Positions 7,456 through 50,470 of a DNA stretch of 64,000 nucleotides are shown here, one piece after another. This stretch comes from Lepisosteus oculatus (lineage: Eukaryota > Chordata > Actinopteri > Semionotiformes > Lepisosteidae). Location of the stretch: the NCBI RefSeq assembly GCF_040954835.1, contig NC_090696.1, forward strand, positions 72,539,722-72,603,721. The letters run 5' to 3'. The notes beneath the pieces were generated by a model. The model saw nothing but the letters and a program-made list of their open reading frames with translations. It was not told where the DNA came from and did no database searches. Numbering within the stretch: the first letter of the stretch is position 1; each line of letters begins with the position of its first letter. The position numbers and the translations under genes were made by a program.

Positions 7456-7584
7456 CCGTGGTGCCCTTAGACCATATGGAACTGCTCCGTATCCATTATA
7501 TCCATTATATCCATTATATCCATTGTATCCATTGAAGCCAGCATAGCCTCCATACCCATAGCCCAAACCCAGCAGACCAGTTCC
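7456..7584 (-). CDS. Gene A exon 6: Gly/Tyr/Asn repeat exon
   Basis: Encodes 43 residues, opening GTGLLGLGYGYGGYAGF, then five NGY repeats (residues about 75-89 of the predicted protein), and closing GAVPYGLRAPR before a gtaaga donor. The nucleotide repeat is a 9-mer (AATGGATAY) at about 7489-7534, so the peptide array could expand or contract by slippage. Aromatic-glycine repeats are unusual in SCPP proteins and resemble low-complexity adhesive or assembling segments. Confidence 0.6.
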
Positions 7585-13125: not shown

Positions 13126-16100
13126 CTGTAAAGATGCAACAACCAGACATGTTTAGGCAAAACAATGATTGGGGACCTAAATGATAGGATTTATTTTTTG
13201 TTTATGTGACTTAAACTTTTAAATACAGTATATTTCCTCATCTGTTGAGCAATGTTACATTTATACTTGATTGTTGTTAGAATATTTTATTTTGCTTGTC
13301 ATTTTAAGATCAATATCCAAGATCAATATTCCTGTTATTATCGGGATGTCACTTTTTCCTGTGTTACCGTAAACAGGACAGTCTGCCATAAGCACAGAGC
13401 ACAAGGTGGAGGTACATCCTAGATGCGATGCCCATCCTTTTCACACAGGGTTACACACAGGCCTAGTTTAGAGACTCCAATTAATCTCCCCAACATGTCT
13501 CCAAGTGGGATGAGGAAACCAGTACGAGCTCACTTTGGAAAGGTTTTCTGGTCCCTGGTAAATTAATTGGCTACTTGCTAGATGCGCTTTTCATCAGTCA
13601 CTATTAAATTTTAAGTGAGGATCTAACCAAACAATATTTAGTTACTGTTTTTTGTTTGTTTCATGCGTCTCATTTGCAATACGGCTCGACGTATTGTCAA
13701 ACGCCGGAATAGAACAGTCAGGCATAAAAACAAAGCTTGTACCGTCAAGTTTACGCAAGACTGGGGGGAAACTTGAGCACGCTCTCACCTTCCTTGATGC
13801 CGAAGCAGGCGCACCACTCCCGGAAAGACACCTGCTTGTCTTTGTCAGCGTCACACTCCTGAAAGAAGCGGGAGGTGCAGTGCTCCATAGGCACCAGGGG
13901 CACACGCAGCGGAGCCAGCTCAGAGTGGGAGAGGTACCTGCGGACACAGCATGGAATTAACCTCTACCTGTTCCTTTGCAGCCCCCGCGTGCTGACGCAA
14001 CTAGGTACAGTACTCAAGCTTCATACCAATATAACTTGCTCATCAGGGCTGCACAGAACATTTTTTAATATAGAGAGCTCAGAAACAGGCCCAGTAGTTT
14101 GCACAGAGATATTACCAAAAGGTAATGGTGTTTGAAATTCAATTTTACCTATCTACTGAGACAGAATGACAACGCAGCACCATAAAAGGACACATTTAAA
14201 TATAGAAACCTTGAGCTCCGAAATCTTAGTGTTAAATAGACAAGCATTTTTTTTTTATTCTTCACTTAGTGCTGCGATTGAGAGGGAATAAGAAATAAAG
14301 GAAACCGTTTCTCCTGTCAAAAGAAATGCATATAAGGTCATAGGATTCCATGACCAACAGCAGTGGAAAAAGACCTACTGTCTGTATAAAATGCTGGTGT
14401 TGGACTGTCAGAAGTTTGTAAAACCAGCCTTAACACTTAACCAGAATACCTTCTCCACTCTAATACACCAAGAGTTAAGACCTGCAAAACACATCTTTTT
14501 GATTTCTTTACACCTTCCAACATAACAACCCAAATGCTTTTTTTGCACTTGTACTGTATTCCTGTTTGTGCTTTTCTGTTAAGACTTTTCACCTAACAAG
14601 GCAGATGAAACATTTGGTATAAACGGAGGTGCTGGGTTCAAAATCATTTAACATTTTATTCCTCAGCTGTGTCGATGGGGACAACACGACACTCTGTTTG
14701 GTCTCCCATTTGATTAATGATCTCAAGCTTTGTACAGAATACTGAGTTCTAAACTAACTAACACGCCACCTTACTAGACTATCCTAATTAAAGATGATTC
14801 ACTGACAATCAATGTTTGTCACGTCATTAACTTTTTCAAATGAATTTCTGCAGGAAGGTTAGATCCTGATCTCGCATACTTCCGCTTGCCTGCATATATC
14901 GGTCTCGTACCCAGGACATCCAGTAGTGCATCTCTCCACTGTCCCTCCCGCCACCCCATCTACAGTACACCCCTGCAGCAACTTCCTGGTCTGGGCCATA
15001 AGGCAGGGCTGCCAGTTCCCTCAGCCAGGTGAGCTTCGCCCAAATGTACCCTGCCTATCCCTCCTCTCTGGTTTATGAGGATCTAACCGAACTGGTGGAA
15101 TCCATTGTTTCTGTGTTCTGACCTGTCAGCAGGGTGTTGGTCCATCTGTGCAAACTGCCAGTGCACTGGGTAGATATACATGTTGTAATTTTTTTCAAAG
15201 TCTCTGACCAGCGTCTCAATGGGGTGATCGTCTGCCTGAAGCCGTCTCTCACTCTCATGCATCTTCTGAACCTGTGGAAGCAAAGTACATCTTCAGGGTA
15301 CTGTGAATGATCCCAAAGTCAAGAAAACAATATACTGTATGAGGGCCAAAAAATAAGCTTCACGTTGATTATGAGAAAGAAGGAGTAAATCACATATTTG
15401 CAGACTGCTTGTTTTCACACCTCCTCCTTCTGTTAATTTTGTTGGCAAAATCATCTTTCAAACTCAATTCTACCTTACTAATGTGAAAAAAGACATACCT
15501 ACTACAATTATTTAATTTGGAATAAAAATGCATACTGTATGTACTAGAGGGGCATATTGACTTAAGGGCTCTAGCCTCTAGCGAGAGCACGGGGCATCTG
15601 TATTAAGTAATACAATTGTAAATCATTAAAAGCTTTCAGAAATCACAATACTGTGTATGTAGATTATAAAGTGTTTTGGATAGGTTGTGTTTTTGCGTGT
15701 TGCTGCAATATTGCCTGTCATACAAGGTTCAATAATTCAAATAGAATATTCTATTATTTTATGACAGTACTCTGTTCTCTTTTACGTTTGGTTTAACCTT
15801 TAAAAGGCCCCAGAGTGTATTTCCATTTCTGGTGTCCCCTCAAAGTATTCTTTCTGAATACATTACATCTCATACCTCAATACACCACTATTTGTAAGTG
15901 AGTGCAAAAGATTCCAATATCCAAGATCAAAGAATGATTGTCTTTCCTACTAAGGAAAACTTTAACATCAGGTATTTTGAGATGTGCCCAATCTTGTGAC
16001 TTTACATAACCAAGTACTGTATACATATTTTTGCACAGAAAGGGTTTGATATGCCAGGCTTGCTTTTTTTGTTTTATTTACTTCAAATCACAAATGTGAA

Positions 16101-19100
16101 AATGACAAAATCATCTGAATAATATCTCTAGGTGGGAATTTTCATCTCTACCCACCATTAACATAAGCAATCACATTTTATATGATGTCATTTGAGAGAA
16201 GAATGCTGTGAACAGCCAAATATTGGATTAACATAAATCATATCCAGCAAGATCCATTCTGAATTCAGCTCCTTTGTTATACAGTACATCATTACAATTG
16301 CTTACCCTTGTGCGCTGCTTAGGGGTAAGAAAGCCAGGAGACTTCATGTCATGTTCATAAAGCTGTAGCAAAACATTTTTCAGCCAGTCGCGCATGCGCA
16401 GAGGGAACTGTGCCAGCTCATTGGCCTGACAAGGTGCAATGTCTGTTAAAGCACATAAACCCCACATTAATACCATAGCAATCACATCCCCTTTCAACTA
16501 CCCATTTTGTAATGGGATTCATGAGAAAACTTCAATACAAAAGGCAGACCCCATCTCCTATCAATCACTTGCTTGCAAAGGTATTGCACAAGGTAAAAAC
16601 ATGGTAAGGTAAGGTAATAGCATAATTGCAGACTTTTTCTATCTCACATTTCTACACTTAAGCATCTCTCCACAAACTACATCCATCTCCACTGCCAAAG
16701 CAGTCACCCTTTGGCTCATTTAAGAGACTGGCATATTTTTAAATGCATTTTAAATTAAAAAACCCAAGACTCAAGAGAGCCGCACCTGACATACATTTGA
16801 AGAATACAATCGACAGTGCTATTTAAAATATGCCTTGTAAATTAGAACGCAATAAAAATTAAAGATAAAAACTATGCTTTGTTTGTGAGAAAAAATAACT
16901 TTTGTGCCCCGCCCCAAAAGTAATGTTTTTCCCATACATTTGCAAGGTCCAGCGTAATCTAAGTGAAGTCTATGGCCTTTTTTAGTTCCGTCAAGATTGC
17001 ACTTTGTAGCAAAAAGCTGACAAGATGTGTCGTAGGTCTTGTTGTCAGTTCCACACACCTAGATGAAGCAAATAAAAAAAAATGAATTGCAGAGACAAAA
17101 TGCATCTATAAAGTTCTGAAGTTCTGTCATCATTGATATCCAGCTTCAATACTTTGAAGGCCAAATTGTCCAAGGTACTGTATATAAACACAAAGGATAA
17201 TGTCCTCAGGGCTTGCATATTGTTACCACTGTTTGAGATCACAATCCCCTCTTTATGCAAGTCTACAGGGCTGTCAGATCTGGCAGCCTGCATGTTTTTC
17301 TTTAACATCCAGGTGTACCAGAGAGCATTGCTTTACTGACCCTCTTAAGGATCAGTTAGTGGCCAGATGCATCACATTTGTAGAAGCAGGCATTTGTAGA
17401 AGGTCAATTAATTTTCAAATATAAGAAAACACAGTGGAGATTGATTTGTCTGGTCTCTTAGTATAGCGCTAACCATCTGGAGTGTGCAAATGAGGTTTTT
17501 GCCAATTGGCAACATTTTGTGGACAGATGAACCATGATTACATCTCCACAGGGACTAAATTAATCCACATAGATCATGTAATTACTACTACATGTTGGTA
17601 GGTTTACAGAAGAGCTAAATTAAGTTTCTTTCAGGTTGTGTTACATCAGTTAAGCATTTTTTCGGCTTGTGTGTTTGCTTGTGCATACTGCACAGTATAT
17701 GTGTACAATTGTCGTAAACAGTACTTACATGCTCAAATTCCCCTTTGCTGGAAATACATGAGGAGGGATCCTGACAGACACACTCGGGATCATTATCTTT
17801 GTTAACTTGACAGATTTTGCCTCGTTTGCAACGGAAGTTTTCACAGGTACCTGAATTAATGAAAGAAGAATCAGAAATTCTTATTTGTCTTCTTAATTCC
17901 AGCCTTTTGTAAAAGCTTACCTTTAATTAATACACAGTAGAAAGGACATAAGAACTCGAAAACACCTTCAACAACATGACTAGGTAGCATTTTCCTTACT
18001 CCCACAGCTCCTTGGGTAAATAAATGAATAAAAAAAACAGGTTCCAGAGAAACAATATCTTTTCTGTAATGTGGTGAATACAACTTTACATAATATTCTA
18101 AAGGAGGGTTATTTGTGCAAAATGCATTATATTCTGAAGCAGAAAAGATAACTTGCTGAATCTACATTAACTCTCATGTTTCAGTTTAAACTAATAACAG
18201 GAATCAGACCTGTGTCATTGACGTATGTTTGTGCAGTGTTCTGAGCTAACCAAGTGTTACCAAGCTAACCCGTCAGGTCCAAAAAGAAAAGCACACAAAC
18301 TATAACCATCATTTATAAATGATTTATAACTCATAAAATATTTCTGTTATGTTTTAAAGAATATCTCTGTTTCATTGTTTAATTAGTTCAAATCTTTTTC
18401 TTTACTCCTTATACCAGTGGTTTATTTTTTCCATTCTCTTGAGAAATAAAGAAAAATGGCATCATCATACATGTAGTTGTTACCGAGATTCCTAATGAAG
18501 TTCTAAAAGAGACGTACCTTGTTGAGAGATGAACCCTGTTACCAGATTCCTGAATTCCTACCATGTGTGCACTTCAGGAAATAATACTTACTGACATCTG
18601 CTTCCTGCGTGTCCTCATCTCTGGAAAGCTGTTCCTGGAGGTAAACCTCCTCAGCAGCCCTTTTCTGAACAGGACTAATCCCAATCACTGATGTCTAAAT
18701 GGATTGGAAAAACATGTCTATAATCAAGCAGTGCTACAGTAAGTACACATGATGGGCCTTAGATTTCTTCTTGTGATTTTATGGGAATAAAATTGAATAA
18801 TGTAATGAACTAGTCAGTTTGAAATGCAAACACACACCAGTGCATCCTGATTATCTTGTAGATTTGTTCACACTATGACATGAAAACTTTGAATTTAGAA
18901 GCAGAATTTAAATACAAGACAAATGCTCAATCGAATGATATAAAGGTGATCTCGATAACTATTTCAATCCCAGTATTTTTTTTTTTATTATTTCTTATTT
19001 CCCCATTAGGTGTTAATCAAATGTTTTAGGGACTTTTTTCAACTTTATTAAAATTTCTAATGGATAAAAGTATAATATTTCTTTGAGTTAATATAATTCT

Positions 19101-22100
19101 ATTCTATCAGCGAGAGAGAATTATTAATTAAACTGACATATTCTAGATGCAATTGACATCACCTTCATGTCAATCAGTTGTGCAAAGGTTTGTATTTAAA
19201 TTTAATTTATGGAATGTAAATAACCCTGAAGAAGGTCTGAAACATGCCCGCTAGTTCTTATTGTTTAATATTAGAAAAAGAGAATATTTCTGAAAGCTTT
19301 GTGTTCTTATCTACATGAGTGTAGACCTTTCTCTAGCTGTTGATTTTGTACAATTCCAAGTTTATTATAGCTATAAGAAATACTTCTGGAACAGGAATGT
19401 GACCCCCAATATTTTAATTAGAAATGTAAACAGTAGCAATAATGCTATCTGAAATATTGAATATACTGAAATAGTGTAATACCTCTGGAGGTCTGCATAT
19501 AATTCAGGCTGGACAGGAAGCACATACTGTTGTCTGCATTCCTTTTATTTAAAGAACCTGGGATATAGCCACTGCCTACTAATTGGCGAATAAGTGCTGA
19601 CTTACATATATAGCAAAGTACTTTTGACTAGGTATACAAATTCTGTCTGTGGCCATTGAAATAGCACTTCAACATTCCTATTTAAGGAGGTCACAAAGCT
19701 TCACCCACATCACAAACATTGTTTTAGCTGACTCCTAAAGTGACTTGGATATTACTGGTCTGTTTTGTTGGATTTTCAAAGAGAAGCCTTCAAGCCTTAT
19801 TGTTCTGTGCCTGCCAGAGATACACAGCGATCTGACATATGTAATGATATGACTTGCAGTGTTCTGTATCTACAGTATATAATTACCCATTTTCCTGATT
19901 TCCTCTTTTTGGTTTTAGGGACTGTGTTCTCCCTCATCTGAAGAACCCCATGCCCCCCATCCGGTCTTTCTTGAGCTCCATGTTCACTAGATGTTTTTCC
20001 ACTGTGGCTTTTCTTTTCGTTTTTTGATATGCCATTCATGCGACTGGCATTGCTTTCCTGCTGCTCCTCCGCACTGCTCTCTGTTCCTTCTGGTTCTGTA
20101 TCTGTGGCCTCTTGCAGGTTGTTGTTACTGTCGTCTTTGTTTTTGGGCTCACTCCCTGTGTCTTTGGATTGACTGCTCTCAACGTCATCACCCTCTTCTT
20201 CGTTGACCTCTGGACTTTCACTCATGCCCTCTTCCAGAATACCTCTTGGTTCAAACTGGTTCCTACCTCTGTGTTTTCCTTGGGAATCATAGTCATCACT
20301 GTCAATGTTTGATTCTCCATCATCTTCCCTGACCTCTCGGCTGTCCTGATCATCCTTGTCTTCAGTATAGCCCATATCTGTAAGTATTTCAGTCTCTGTA
20401 CTGCTGCCAATCTCCTGAAAGCTGCTTACACTATCATTGCCTTTATCATCTGGTTCATCTGCTGATAAACCATCTGCCAAATCCTGGGATCCCCTTCGTC
20501 TGTCCAGGTCATCATCTTGACTTGTCTGTGCCTCTTCACTGAGTAGCACAGGTGAAGCATTCTGCTCAGTATCTTCTTCATCCTGTTTTTCCTGACTGCT
20601 TGCTTCTAAGGATATTACAGCAGGTAGCTTTTCTCCTTCACTTAACTTGTCAAGATCCCAAGATTCCTTGGGATTTAACATCATAAAACAAAAATAGAAA
20701 GTTTGAAATTATACTTTGTTTTTCAAACATTAACATTTTCAAGCATGAACATTTAAAGTAAGAATGATTAATTTATCTTTGCTCATACAGTATATCTCTC
20801 TTAGAAATGAATTATAAATTGACTTCAATGTATTTCACTTCCCAATGTTTTTGGGGGGAGGCAGCAGTACTTTATATATTGGGTACTTTATGTATTGGGT
20901 AAGAGAAAAACTGAAAATACTGAATTGTCAAACAGCCTTTTCTGAAAACAGCTAATGGTTAATGCGTTAGTATCTTTGCTTTTGTTGCATGTAGTCAATA
21001 AAGCATTCTCAACAATACAAATACAAAAAAGTCTTAGTGATATGTTACTCCTTTCAGTCTGAAAACATATTTTGTAGAAGGTAAGGTGAGAAGAATGAAG
21101 AAGATAAGAGGTGATAAGGAGGTAAGGAGCTCCAAATAAGGAGATAAGGAGAGGATCTAACACAAAAGCAGCACAAAGCTTGGTATCAATTTAATATTAC
21201 CCTAGAAAGAAACTCAATTTTCATAAAACATTAATATTAACTTCATTGAATAATATCGTAACAGTTACCATACACAAATCTTGTTTAATTTGTTATGTAA
21301 GCAAACATGGAAACACATTTTGTAGTTTATAGTCATTACTACTGTCAGTAAGTACTGTATGCAAAAGATTATCTATTACCTTTCCATTCTGTGTCACTGG
21401 TGTCTTCAGTGAAACCGTATGTGTTCTGTGAGGCTTGCTTGTTACCTTGTGCATGAGAATTAAAATAAGCAACAGTATTCTGAATAACAATAATAATATG
21501 AAACAAATAACAAAAACAAATAAACCCCAGAAAAATGTTAAAAGAAATGTATGTTATATACAGTATAATTAATCAGTTTCCAATGTGATGGAACATCCTT
21601 GATCATGGTTCTGGGCCTACATTAAGGAAAAACATTGCTCACCTTTTGAAAATGTGAAACATTATATATGATATCTATTTAATTGACTCAAGGTTTAAAG
21701 TTACTTTTTTCATGCAGAAATTGTTTGGTTAGTGTTTATTTCTCTTTCAGGCTTAATATAGTTATTACCTCTTGAGAGTTGCAACATCACTGCCAAACAA
21801 TGCTGAGCATGTCTACTCACATTTTTGTCCCTTCATGAACCTGATAAATGCAACAGTGCAGTAGGGTATCAGAGGACTGAGAGCCTTGTTCCCTTGTTTT
21901 AGCCAGGACCTAGTTTCTGCCCTACCCATTGTCAACCTTGAAACTGTTGAATTCTCATATTCCACTCTTCCTGGTGTACAACCAGTCCTGCCCTGCCAGT
22001 TGCTTTCTCCCTTACTGGCGAGTGAACTGTAGCTGCCATGTGGACGTCCCTCATATTGCTGAAGCTAACTCCTCTCGTTTCCATAGCCACTCAGAGAGCG

Positions 22101-22829
22101 AAACAAGCTTCCTTTTACTGCCTTAGACTGTGCCATGCTAAGATCATGCTGCTGGGTGCTAAATATGAGGTGGGTCAATGGAGAAGGTTGACCACCCACT
22201 CCAACAGGGTGGCTGTGTAGAGTGAAAGAACACCCACCCCCCTATTTGGTGTTCTACCCCTGACTCTCACAGCAGCAATCCTGGTAGGACTCTTCCTTAC
22301 ATTGCCAGGATGTTGCTCTTTGCCGGGAGCCTTCCATGCAGTGTAATGCCCAATGTGATGCCTAAAGGGATGTGGAATGCCCACACACTGGGAAGCCCAC
22401 AGGGATGGCATAGGTCCTGCTGTGGACCAAAGACACATTCAAAGAATGATCTGGATGCAGCATGGTCCTCAATCCGTATCACGAGTTTAGCAGAAGGCAA
22501 CCCAGTTGGAACGGACACTTTCATCAGCATTACCTTGGGCTCTTTGTCCTTCTATTTTTGACAGCTTGGGCTCCCAAGAGGTAATAGTTACCTTCATTCT
22601 GAAAGGAAACACTATGTTTCCAGAGTACACACATGATAGTCAAACTGTTCTGAGTCTGCCAGCAGGATCTTCTATTGTCCAAAGCAGAATGCTTTTTCAG
22701 TACATCATAAGTCAGCGCTGAAACTGTATAAAATACTTCTGTGAAGTTTTAAAGAATAAATTCGAACCACATACTTACAGGGTCAGCAAAAGCCAAAGTC
22801 AAGAGACAAAGTAACAGTAAATTCATCAT
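13097..22829 (-). CDS. SPARCL1: SPARCL1 (hevin / SPARC-like 1), complete coding region in ten exons
   Basis: Coding exons: 22779-22829, 21380-21445, 19887-20666, 18592-18694, 17729-17850, 16938-17058, 16306-16442, 15123-15271, 13789-13937 and 13097-13125. All boundaries are GT/AG and all phases agree, giving 1707 nt and 568 residues. Order: signal peptide (1-15 or so), short linker exon, an acidic low-complexity domain (40-299), a linker (300-333), a follistatin-like Cys-rich module (334-374), a Kazal-like module (375-414), the extracellular calcium-binding (EC) domain (415-568) with a variant EF-hand ([17 protein letters not shown]) and a canonical EF-hand loop [12 protein letters not shown] at 539-550. 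The ending [14 protein letters not shown] resembles SPARCL1 rather than SPARC. The protein is a secreted collagen- and calcium-binding matricellular glycoprotein, considered the closest relative of the ancestor of the SCPP genes. It is head to head with the DSPP-like gene, as in tetrapods. Oddity: an extra cysteine in EWCACFG next to the EF-hand disulfide cysteine. Confidence 0.93.
13789..13937 (-). CDS. SPARCL1: SPARCL1 exon 10: EF-hand pair
   Basis: 149 nt, encoding [20 protein letters not shown] through the canonical calcium loop [12 protein letters not shown] and WCACFGIK. Calcium ligands are at loop positions 1, 3, 5, 7, 9 and 12, with Glu at 12. Phase 2 in, phase 1 out. GC content is clearly higher than in the surrounding DNA. 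Confidence 0.92.
15123..15271 (-). CDS. SPARCL1: SPARCL1 exon 9: EC domain, collagen-binding helices
   Basis: 149 nt starting [11 protein letters not shown] and including [19 protein letters not shown], the conserved core preceding the first EF-hand. Phase 0 in, phase 2 out (donor gtcaga). Confidence 0.9.
16306..16442 (-). CDS. SPARCL1: SPARCL1 exon 8: start of the EC domain
   Basis: 137 nt encoding the first helices of the EC domain, including [20 protein letters not shown]. Phase 1 in, phase 0 out (donor gtaagc). Confidence 0.9.
16938..17058 (-). CDS. SPARCL1: SPARCL1 exon 7: Kazal-like module
   Basis: 121 nt encoding [20 protein letters not shown] and on to LDYAGPCK, the Kazal-like half of the follistatin domain. 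NKT is an N-glycosylation sequon. Phase 0 in, phase 1 out (donor gtatgg). Confidence 0.9.
17729..17850 (-). CDS. SPARCL1: SPARCL1 exon 6: follistatin-like module
   Basis: 122 nt encoding the Cys-rich segment [14 protein letters not shown] followed by [10 protein letters not shown], the follistatin N-terminal hairpin of SPARC-family proteins. Phase 1 in, phase 0 out. Confidence 0.9.
18592..18694 (-). CDS. SPARCL1: SPARCL1 exon 5: linker
   Basis: 103 nt, phase 0 in and phase 1 out, encoding [20 protein letters not shown] and a short acidic stretch. Acceptor ccatttag, donor gtaagt. Confidence 0.8.
19887..20666 (-). CDS. SPARCL1: SPARCL1 exon 4: acidic domain
   Basis: 780 nt, phase 0 at both ends, 260 residues very rich in Glu, Asp and Ser, starting [13 protein letters not shown], with many S-x-E and S-x-D sites (for example LSEGE, SESPE, SSAEEQ). 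A single large acidic exon in this position is diagnostic of SPARCL1. The domain is variable in sequence between species and is thought to bind calcium with low affinity. Confidence 0.85.
21380..21445 (-). CDS. SPARCL1: SPARCL1 exon 3
   Basis: 66 nt, phase 0 at both ends, encoding 22 Thr/Lys/His-rich residues starting [14 protein letters not shown]. Acceptor catgcacaag is weak in pyrimidines; donor gtaata. Confidence 0.7.
22140..22600. other. Unexplained GC-richer block in SPARCL1 intron 2
   Basis: A stretch with open frames on both strands and a base composition unlike the flanking AT-rich intron. No domain or splice context is recognisable. Most likely a decayed mobile element. Confidence 0.25.
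22779..22829 (-). CDS. SPARCL1: SPARCL1 exon 2: start codon and signal peptide
   Basis: Encodes [17 protein letters not shown], then a gtaagt donor. The exon starts at 22845 after the acceptor ttattattttcag, so 16 nt of leader precede the ATG. Two tandem ATGs; the first is taken as the start. Confidence 0.85.
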
Positions 22830-29092: not shown

Positions 29093-29181
29093 AGAATGAA
29101 TAAAACACCAAATATTTCTCCATGAATTGACAAGCTATCCTTGTCAATTCATGGAGAAATATTTGGTGTTTCATTCATTCT
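29093..29181. repeat. Long near-perfect inverted repeat (hairpin)
   Basis: Arms 29093-29134 and 29140-29181, 42 nt each, differ at one position and flank a 5-nt spacer (ctatc). It contains no microsatellite. Either strand would fold into a stable stem-loop if transcribed. Confidence 0.9.
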
Positions 29182-47778: not shown

Positions 47779-47832
47779 ATGAAGATCTTTATTTCAATAA
47801 CGTTCCTTCTGGCTGTGGCATCTGCTGTGCCT
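47779..47832 (+). CDS. dsppl1: DSPP-like exon 2: signal peptide
   Basis: Exon begins at 47763 after acceptor ttttcatag, with a 16-nt leader, then 18 codons and a gtaagt donor. Confidence 0.88.
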
Positions 47833-50470
47833 GTAAGTAGACTGGGATACGTATGTATTGTTTTTCCAACTAATTTACAAAAGAAAACAATGGAATTGCT
47901 TGTACTTGTCGTGTTACACACCCCCCCAGTGTTATTCCTTTCTGCTGTTTCAATTATTTGTACTGATTATATGGAAATTTAGTTTGATTATCTCACAGTA
48001 ATGAAGGTCACTTATTTAACATGCTGTTTGCGCATTGATTTTCAATATATGTACTTCTTCTTTTTCCTAGACATTCTGGTATCGAAACAAAATCAGTACT
48101 CAGGAGGACAACTCAGAAATCCATGGGGTATACTAGCTATTCTCTCCTTGAAATCTTAACTTTTTATTTCACATTAAGTAAGATGTTTGGCAACCCTGAT
48201 ACAATATGATAGAATATCTGTCACATCTGCAATTTCATTGAAGACTCCACACTGACTCTCATTTGAAATCGATCACATTCAGCTCAAACTTACGAAGAGG
48301 GAAACGTCTATGATATCCTTCACAGCACAGTGATAACACAACAAATACTGTAAATGGCATGCACACTTTGGGATGTACTGTATGTATTTAAAGAAATACT
48401 TCTAATAATAATTGGTAGTACCAGTATTCATTTCTACAGAATTAGTTTAATGTTATGACAATAAAAGTGTATTATCTAAATGTTTTTTATAGAATTAAAT
48501 CTCACGGAAGTAATAATGTTTTGTGAATTTATGTTGCAAATATCTACCAATACTATTGGAAAAGCTAATACTTTGATTCCTATGTGTCAATTTAGGGCGC
48601 TATTGAGAATGGAGGCACACCAATTGGAACTGATGGGGCATTTGGAGTGACAGCAGGAAAAGGCAGTGATAACAAAGAAGTGGAAAGAAATGACCCAAAA
48701 GTAAATGGGCTTAATGCTGTCCAACCTAGTAATGGTCTAGATGGCATGACTGGTGGAAGTGTAAAAGTTCAACAAAAAAATGTAAATCATGCTGTTGTAA
48801 GTGCCACAAAGAATAATGTGAATGATTTTGGGAACACTATTCTCATTGAAGATTATGAGGTTGGTGATGCAGAGATAAGAGATAAACAGGAACTGCAGAG
48901 TCATGGTGCCAATTATGAATTTGATGATAAAGGACTGCATGGTGATGATCCAATGGCATTCTATGGAATACATGGTGATGATCCAATGGCATTCTATGGA
49001 ATGCAAGGAGATGATCCAAAAGCATCTGATGGAAATAAAAATGAAAATCAAGAAAATGATCATTCCAGTTCCAGTTCCAGCAGTGAGGAGAGTAAAAGCA
49101 GTGACTCCAGTTCCAGCAGTGAAGAAGGCAAAAGCAGTGATTCCAGTTCAAGTTCTAGCAGTGAGGAGGGTAAGGGCAGTGACTCCAGCTCCAGTTCCAG
49201 CAGTGAGGAGGGTAAGGGCAGTGACTCCAGCTCCAGTTCCAGCAGTGAGGAGGGTAAGGGCAGTGACTCCAGCTCCAGTTCCAGCAGTGAGGAGGGTAAG
49301 GGCAGTGACTCCAGCTCCAGTTCCAGCAGTGAGGAGGGTAAGGGCAGTGACTCCAGCTCCAGTTCCAGCAGTGAGGAGGGTAAGGGCAGTGACTCCAGCT
49401 CCAGTTCCAGCAGTGAGGAGGGTAAGGGCAGTGACTCCAGCTCCAGTTCCAGCAGTGAGGAGGGTAAGGGCAGTGACTCCAGCTCCAGTTCCAGCAGTGA
49501 GGAGGGTAAGGGCAGTGACTCCAGCTCTAGTTCCAGCAGTGAGGAGGGTAAGGGCAGTGACTCCAGTTCTAGCAGTGAAGAAGACAAAAGCAGTGATTCC
49601 AGTTCAAGTTCTAGCAGTGAGGAAGGTAAAAGCAGTGACTCCAGCTCCAGTTCTAGCAGTGACTCCAGCTCCAGCTCCAGCAGTGAATCCAGCTCCAGTT
49701 CCAGCAGTGAGGAAGGTAAAAGCAGTGACTCCAGCTCCAGTTCTAGCAGTGACTCCAGCTCCAGTTCTAGCAGTGAGGAAGGTAAAAGCAGTGACTCCAG
49801 TTCTAGCAGTGAATCCAGCTCCAGTTCCAGCAGTGAGGAGGGTAAAAGCAGTAACTCCAGCTCCAGCTCCAGCTCCAGCTCCAGTTCCAGCAGTGAGGAG
49901 GGTAAAAGCAGTGACTCCAGTTCTAGCAGTGACTCCAGCTCCAGCTCCAGCAGTGAATCCAGTTCCAGTTCCAGCAGTGAGGAGGGTAAGGGCAGTGACT
50001 CCAGTTCTAGCAGTGACTCCAGCTCCAGTTCCAGCAGTGAGGAGGGTAAGGGCAGTGACTCCAGCTCTAGTTCCAGCAGTGAGGAGGGTAAGGGCAGTGA
50101 CTCCAGCTCCAGTTCTAGCAGTGAGGAGGGTAAGGGCAGTGACTCCAGCTCTAGTTCCAGCAGTGAGGAGGGTAAGGGCAGTGACTCCAGCTCCAGTTCC
50201 AGCAGTGAGGAGAGTAAAGGCAGTGACTCCAGCTCCAGTTCCAGCAGTGAGGAGGGTGAAGAGAATGCTGAGCCAGATAATGGTACTAATGAACCAAGTA
50301 TTTCAGAGTCTACCAATGATGTGGGCACTCAGAGTGTTCCTGTTACAGACAAACAAAACACTAAAAAGGTGATCAAGCCTCGTAAACAAGTTATCCAAAG
50401 AAAACAACACAGCGTTGAAGACGATGACAATAGTAATGGCAGCGACGATACAAGTGACCAGAGTAGCTGA
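47779..50470 (+). CDS. dsppl1: DSPP-like acidic SCPP protein with triplicated tolloid cleavage motif
   Basis: Exons 47779-47832, 48071-48127 and 48596-50470 are all phase 0 and join to 661 residues. Residues 1-18 are the signal peptide MKIFISITFLLAVASAVP. Residues 19-37 (TFWYRNKISTQEDNSEIHG) carry an S-x-E-like acidic exon 3. The large exon has an N-terminal Asn/Gly-rich part, then YEFDDKG and three tandem sites (LHGDDP, IHGDDP, MQGDDP; cuts predicted after residues 153, 164 and 175). These match the BMP1/tolloid site that separates DSP from DPP in DSPP and splits DMP1. Residues 194 to about 590 are a Ser/Asp/Glu/Gly/Lys repeat analogous to phosphophoryn, dense in S-x-E kinase sites. The tail is basic (KKVIKPRKQVIQRKQ) then acidic. 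No RGD is seen. The gene is head to head with SPARCL1, the position of DSPP in tetrapods. The symbol follows my memory of a DSPP-like gene named in gar; strict orthology with DSPP is not proven. Probably secreted by odontoblasts or bone cells to control mineral growth (family inference). Confidence 0.88.
48071..48127 (+). CDS. dsppl1: DSPP-like exon 3
   Basis: 57 nt, phase 0, after acceptor tttttcctag, with donor gtatac. It encodes 19 residues ending NSEIHG. Confidence 0.75.
48596..50470 (+). CDS. dsppl1: DSPP-like exon 4: large acidic exon and stop
   Basis: Starts GAIENGGTPIGTDG after acceptor caatttag, in phase with exon 3, and ends SDDTSDQSS then TGA. 624 codons. A single huge last exon holding almost the whole protein is typical of acidic SCPP genes (DSPP, DMP1). 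Confidence 0.88.
   Translation, partial: GAIENGGTPIGTDGAFGVTAGKGSDNKEVERNDPKVNGLNAVQPSNGLDGMTGGSVKVQQKNVNHAVVSATKNNVNDFGNTILIEDYEVGDAEIRDKQELQSHGANYEFDDKGLHGDDPMAFYGIHGDDPMAFYGMQGDDPKASDGNKNENQENDHSSSSSSSEESKSSDSSSSSEEGKSSDSSSSSSSEEGKGSDSSSSSSSEEGKGSDSSSSSSSEEGKGSDSSSSSSSEEGKGSDSSSSSSSEEGKGSDSSSSSSSEEGKGSDSSSSSSSEEGKGSDSSSSSSSEEGKGSDSSSSSSSEEGKGSDSSSSSSSEEGKGSDSSSSSEEDKSSDSSSSSSSEEGKSSDSSSSSSSDSSSSSSSESSSSSSSEEGKSSDSSSSSSSDSSSSSSSEEGKSSDSSSSSESSSSSSSEEGKSSNSSSSSSSSSSSSSEEGKSSDSSSSSDSSSSSSSESSSSSSSEEGKGSDSSSSSDSSSSSSSEEGKGSDSSSSSSSEEGKGSDSSSSSSSEEGKGSDSSSSSSSEEGKGSDSSSSSSSEESKGSDSSSSSSSEEGEENAEPDNGTNEPSISESTNDVGTQSVPVTDKQNTKKVIKPRKQVIQRKQHSVEDDDNSNGSDDTSDQSS
49064..50260 (+). repeat. Coding tandem repeat: 42-nt / 14-residue Ser-rich units
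   Basis: Basic unit SSSSSSSEEGKGSD. Ten EEGKGSD units follow each other at an exact 42-nt period from about 49168 to 49546. A central part (49560-49980) has irregular units with extra SD or SE inserts, and a second regular block follows to 50260. All repeats keep the reading frame, which also opens the other frames. Confidence 0.92.

Follow-up and report, generated by a model that had tools for sequence, protein, structure and literature searches.

The locus and its gene neighborhood

The window, a stretch of 64,000 nucleotides from Lepisosteus oculatus, carries a SPARC/SPARCL1-type gene and, on the opposite strand and pointing away from it with the two start codons 25 kb apart, a predicted gene whose large last coding exon contains three tandem copies of a motif resembling the tolloid/BMP1 cleavage site of DSPP (Table 1). 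The best PDB matches of the SPARC calcium-binding piece are SPARC/BM-40 chains, and the five include 7kbu, which we take to be SPARCL1/hevin. The 302-residue acidic open frame of this gene (19797-20705) matches no Pfam family, and because of this frame we lean to SPARCL1 rather than SPARC as its identity.

A scan of the + strand between the two genes for other SCPP signal exons, of a kind that may miss genes, gave none with strict donors and six weak candidates with relaxed donors, none of them convincing. Candidate signal-peptide exons with phase-0 GTAAGT donors are present at 743 (MKSAILLLYFFGAAFASPVP) and 10779 (MRTFILLACILPAVYLMPVP), both on the - strand, and these possibly mark SCPP genes of the P/Q-rich kind on the far side of the SPARC/SPARCL1-type gene; a simple P/Q scan returned no row near either position. 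Elsewhere in the window there is a 42-nt inverted repeat at 29093-29181, with arms 98% complementary and separated by 5 nt, perhaps a hairpin RNA or a mobile element of small size, and a 9-nt tandem repeat (TATCCATTA, 4.9 copies) at 7490-7533. No part of the window, the inverted repeat included, matches an Rfam family at gathering scores.

Table 1. Features of the locus; the arrow marks a predicted cleavage position.
Feature	Position	Strand	Remarks
SPARC/SPARCL1-type gene	13754..22829	-	FOLN, Kazal and SPARC calcium-binding domain matches; acidic open frame (19797-20705); signal exon at 22829
Signal-peptide exon, coding part, MKIFISITFLLAVASA↓VP (MKIFISITFLLAVASAVP)	47779..47832	+	phase-0 donor GTAAGT; signal cleavage site predicted
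Short exon of 19 codons, TFWYRNKISTQEDNSEIHG, phase 0	48071..48127	+	acceptor TTTTTCCTAG, donor GTATACTA; predicted from sequence
Large last coding exon, 624 codons plus stop	48596..50470	+	open frame; acceptor CAATTTAG
Left flank YEFDDKG	48914..48934	+	conserved left flank of cleavage site (pig: YEFDGKS)
Copy 1, LHG↓DDPMAFYG	48935..48967	+	predicted scissile bond 48943/48944
Copy 2, IHG↓DDPMAFYG	48968..49000	+	predicted scissile bond 48976/48977
Copy 3, MQG↓DDPKASDG, canonical site	49001..49033	+	predicted scissile bond 49009/49010
Ser-rich phosphophoryn-like repeat, 42-nt unit of about SSSSSSSEEGKGSD, 27.7 copies	49064..50257	+	tandem repeat

The predicted gene and its product

If expressed and spliced as predicted, the gene would encode a secreted protein of 661 amino acids, with the signal peptide on an exon of its own, introns in phase 0 and the motif array within the last exon. 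The expected mature N-terminus, VPT, fits at two positions the hydrophobic-Pro-hydrophobic pattern (ER-ESCAPE motif) described for DSPP (PMC6097701), the third position being Thr. The 137 mature residues that precede the first expected cut are rich in Asn and Gly, and the part that follows the third expected cut comprises 486 residues, 265 of them Ser, with SxE/SxpS chaining reaching 235 of the 265. The Ser codons of this C-terminal part (49010-50467) are of mixed type, 168 AGY and 97 TCN. There are 54 SxE kinase sites in the C-terminal part and none in N-terminal residues 17-153. A kinase site of the SxE/SxpS type near the N-terminus is listed as an SCPP feature (PMC4707025), and its absence lowers the claim to DSPP/DSPPL1-type membership, the feature being drawn from one passage and possibly varying from gene to gene. 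The predicted protein contains no RGD, and the large exon matches no Pfam family up to an E value of 0.1. At 50360-50470, on the 3' side of the Ser-rich repeat, the frame encodes a basic stretch (KKVIKPRKQVIQRKQH) and then an acidic end (SVEDDDNSNGSDDTSDQSS), the latter bearing a faint resemblance to the SNNSTSDE motif of anole DSPP (PMC2803795).

A tandem array of three motif copies

The array, with its left flank, lies in a single open frame that reads YEFDDKG-LHGDDPMAFYG-IHGDDPMAFYG-MQGDDPKASDG (48914-49033). The copies are in frame, 33 nt apiece and gapless (48935-49033), and the first two have the linker MAFYG in common. This arrangement had been described in the first-pass annotation as YEFDDKG followed by LHGDDP, IHGDDP and MQGDDP at 33-nt spacing with a shared MAFYG, and re-derivation of coordinates and residues found the description correct. 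Tandem Repeats Finder detects the array unprompted (48938-49034, period 33, 2.9 copies, 89% matches, score 143). At the nucleotide level copies 1 and 2 are identical at 31 of 33 positions, both differences falling in the first codon (CTG/ATA), and each is identical to copy 3 at 25 of 33. The GDDP core is kept in all three with a single synonymous change (GGT/GGA) that sets copy 3 apart from the others, and all three of the linker codons by which copy 3 differs from copies 1 and 2 alter the amino acid.

The array is the product of tandem duplication at the DNA level, with chance ruled out. When the residues of the 192-residue part preceding the Ser-rich repeat were shuffled, at least one GDDP arose in 1675 of 200000 shuffles and three GDDP in 0 of 200000. 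When all six frames of the window were scanned, with + strand hits at 49060-50260 skipped, the three places in the array were the sole matches to [GSNAQ]DDP, and under the looser pattern [MLIV][QH][GSNAR]DD the same scan gave one extra match, LQADD at 15227-15241 on the - strand, inside the SPARC-type gene. The segment HGANYEFDDKG, which is encoded by the 33 nt immediately preceding copy 1 and shares CATGGTG with it, was considered as a decayed fourth copy and set aside by judgement; since YEFD is a conserved flank, the sharing of CATGGTG is more likely due to chance.

Relationship to the DSPP cleavage site and history of the array

The cleavage context of pig DSPP is YEFDGKSMQG↓DDPN (YEFDGKSMQGDDPN; Tsuchiya et al., PMC3179315), and in the native pig protein both BMP-1 and meprin alpha cut the G↓D bond (PMC3179315). 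For rat DSPP in insect-cell medium, mass spectrometry places the cut at this bond too, and the BMP1 product is of the same size (PMC3398931). MQXDD is described, as one motif, in all mammals that the authors of one study successfully investigated, and MQGDD in both DSPP and DMP1 of the anole; the motif is not invariant, because a database sequence of the kangaroo rat reads MQGDG (PMC2803795).

Against this background the left flank is the most telling element. YEFDDKG is identical to pig YEFDGKS at five of seven residues and stands at the same spacing from copy 1 as the pig flank from its core. The match scores 28, whereas the runner-up place scores 10 in the part before the repeat and 23 in six frames of the window; composition shuffles reached the score in 0 of 100000 trials, and permutations of its own seven letters did so in 262 of 100000. 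This flank is unique to copy 1, copies 2 and 3 scoring -11 each, and the canonical core MQGDDP is found in copy 3. To the right of the core, copy 3 (MQGDDPKASDG) was set against mouse DDPKSSDES (PMC8526674) and rat DDPNSSDESNGSDG (PMC3398931). The likeness is visible to the eye. Over the first six residues the score against mouse was reached by 580 of 100000 mixed-composition shuffles, and the score against rat by 21941 of 100000 own-composition shuffles over 19 residues and 27997 of 100000 over nine; because own-composition shuffles so often reach the rat score, the right flank contributes little.

A flank beside copy 1, a canonical core in copy 3 and derived linkers between them make up the pattern expected of tandem duplication within one ancestral site, and homology to the DSPP-type BMP1/tolloid site is well supported by these sequence comparisons. 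The earlier proposals that this is a DSPP-type site duplicated locally from a single ancestor, and that the last copy is the closest to the tetrapod site, are both supported: the pig YEFD.K flank directly precedes copy 1 at equal spacing, and copy 3 is MQGDDP. The explanation that we consider likely is that two tandem duplications, each of 33 nt and in frame, gave a DSPP/DSPPL1-type acidic SCPP gene three BMP1/tolloid sites in place of its single ancestral one, and that the precursor is cut here by tolloid-family astacins. The first duplication would have copied a unit like MQGDDPKASDG, and the second, more recent, its diverged upstream copy. That the duplication giving copies 1 and 2 came second is suggested by the pairwise identities, a pattern that gene conversion between these two copies would equally produce.

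Which of the bonds are cleaved

On the model of DSPP, tolloid-family (astacin) proteases would cut the secreted precursor after Gly and separate a DSP-like part of 137 residues from a Ser-rich, phosphophoryn-like part that starts with DDP, whichever copy is used. Since G↓DDP is present in every copy, the two-part outcome would be equal for a cut in any of the three, with a difference of 11 or 22 residues. The copies need not be equally good substrates. The double change of MQ to IE abolishes BMP-1 cleavage of both peptide and protein (PMC3179315, PMC3398931), and changes at P3 and P2 are thus able to kill the site for this enzyme. Copies 1 and 2 depart from MQG at these same two positions, although each retains a hydrophobic P3 and Gly at P1. 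A split of the protein in this stretch, as in DSPP, is most likely, with copy 3 (GMQG↓DDPK) offering the surest scissile bond and copies 1 and 2 serving as extra or weakened sites; cleavage of these two (GLHG↓DDPM and GIHG↓DDPM), if it occurs at all, is probably less efficient.

Two more specific versions of this explanation can be weighed. In the first, only copy 3 works, and copies 1 and 2, which repeat instability produced as neutral by-products, are drifting away from the motif. The loss of MQ at P3 and P2 from both copies, the amino-acid-changing nature of every linker codon difference from copy 3, and the presence in the same exon of another expanding repeat, the 42-nt array, all favor it. 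Against it, GDDP is intact in all three copies save for the one synonymous change, though copies 1 and 2 may be too young for decay; Leu at P3, as in copy 1, is known from the TLL1 sites QLQK↓DE (PMC8262646); and even the IE variant SIEGDDPN, uncut by BMP-1 and meprin alpha, is cut by meprin beta (PMC3179315). We regard this version as a serious possibility, held at somewhat less than even confidence. In the second, all three bonds are cut, giving redundancy and two 11-residue peptides, DDPMAFYGIHG and DDPMAFYGMQG. The G↓DDP and hydrophobic P3 of every copy are consistent with this, as is the tolerance of SIEGDDPN by meprin beta, but His at P2 occurs neither in the DSPP site nor among the nine distinct TLL1 sites considered out of the 17 used in one study (PMC8262646), and the Ile at P3 of copy 2 also occurs in the IE variant, which neither BMP-1 nor meprin alpha cuts (PMC3179315). 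Cleavage at all three bonds seems to us rather unlikely. A more elaborate proposal, and a more doubtful one, is that of a functional multi-cut cassette, in which astacins cut the three G↓D bonds and free two near-identical 11-residue peptides with an unusual aromatic linker, and in which the number of sites is a tunable, repeat-driven trait that sets the completeness of phosphophoryn release in dentin or scale mineralization.

A weight matrix derived from a few tolloid sites was tried as a predictor of cleavage and given no weight, the IE negative control SIEGDDPN scoring 11.87. It was built from nine sites, namely SMQGDDPN and eight of the nine distinct sites considered out of the 17 used in PMC8262646, with GEAATSPM dropped for having no Asp at P1'. 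It ranked GMQGDDPK first (14.26), GLHGDDPM second (10.04), HSVEDDDN next (7.24) and GIHGDDPM fourth (6.97), and once SMQGDDPN and GMVGDDPY were removed from it, no copy of the array was within the top eight listed. A natural triplication with variant P3 and P2 residues is itself a ready-made test of the positional needs of tolloid proteases, which the MQ to IE double mutant leaves open.

Identity of the gene

The gene combines a location in the SPARCL1 cluster, an MQXDD site ahead of a Ser-rich domain, and a long phosphorylatable repeat of Ser and acidic residues, features of the DSPP/DSPPL1 type, and its putative orthology to DSPP/DSPPL1 is based on motif, anatomy and neighborhood. The principal alternative is that the gene is DMP1, for which the first-pass annotation gives the cleavage site MQS↓DDP. 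DMP1 is cut at the same kind of motif, and the anole protein carries the very sequence MQGDD (PMC2803795), but the gar protein ends in SNGSDDTSDQSS and is devoid of HNKPXXDXDDNDCQDGY, the sequence given for the C-terminus of DMP1 in PMC2803795, and its long Ser repeat is DSPP-like. The six-frame scan described above found neither DC.DGY nor CQDGY in the window, and an identity as DMP1 is improbable. Still less probable, and disfavored, is that the motif arose independently in an unrelated protein made of repeats. A sequence as short as GDDP can come from repeats rich in Asp and Gly, and 1675 of the 200000 shuffles contained it, but such an origin is at odds with YEFD.K at equal spacing, the SPARC/SPARCL1-type neighbor, the SCPP-type exon structure and the Ser-rich tail.

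Comparison with known systems

Among proteins unrelated to this one, the site GMVG↓DDPY, presumably that of prolysyl oxidase, has the Gly at P4 and the G↓DDP that are found in all three gar copies. It is listed as a TLL1 site (PMC8262646). DMP1 has the same kind of tolloid site as the gar gene, which differs in lacking the C-terminal DDNDCQDGY (PMC2803795).

Going by published descriptions, the gene expected in the gar cluster is Dsppl1, known from coelacanth, reptiles and ray-finned fish. Dsppl1 is present in coelacanth and reptiles (PMC4707025); in bichir and gar, dsppl1 is counted with the acidic SCPP genes and is placed in cluster I, which bears sparcl1, of bichir and/or gar (Kawasaki, PMC13367325). 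Across the 63 teleost genomes of that survey, denticle herring is the only species for which the sparcl1 cluster is reported to contain a dsppl1-like gene (PMC13367325). This distribution suggests that the host of such a locus is a non-teleost ray-finned fish, the denticle herring or a lobe-finned vertebrate. If the host of the present sequence is a ray-finned fish, as the gene neighborhood suggests, YEFD.K together with MQGDDP would put the split into DSP and phosphophoryn before the separation of ray-finned and lobe-finned lineages. Anole DSPP shares with the gar gene MQGDD, a large open frame preceded by a short leader exon, and mixed AGC/T and TCN Ser codons; unlike the gar gene, it is described with one site and with a remnant RGQ after that site (PMC2803795).

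Mammalian DSPP, in which DSP is parted from DPP at SMQG↓DDPN, resembles the gar gene in the YEFD.K flank (pig), the MQGDDP core and the position of the site just before a long Ser-rich repeat, and it lies at the SPARCL1 end of its cluster (PMC2803795), as the gar gene likewise lies beside a SPARC/SPARCL1-type gene. The gar gene is without RGD, and so are 16 of 35 mammals, so that RGD is not required for DSPP (PMC2803795). The gar N-terminal part is short (137 residues), unlike that of mammalian DSPP, and the gar repeat consists of SSSSSSSEEGKGSD-like units with both AGY and TCN Ser codons, whereas mammalian DPP repeats are of SSD with AGC/T codons except in SKSD tetrapeptides (PMC2803795). Among the literature matches listed, taken by titles and abstract starts, none names a duplicated or triplicated DSPP cleavage site, which is not to claim its absence from print. 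Mammalian DSPP is described with a single motif and is cut at one conserved bond (PMC2803795); in the gar gene the motif is present in three tandem copies.
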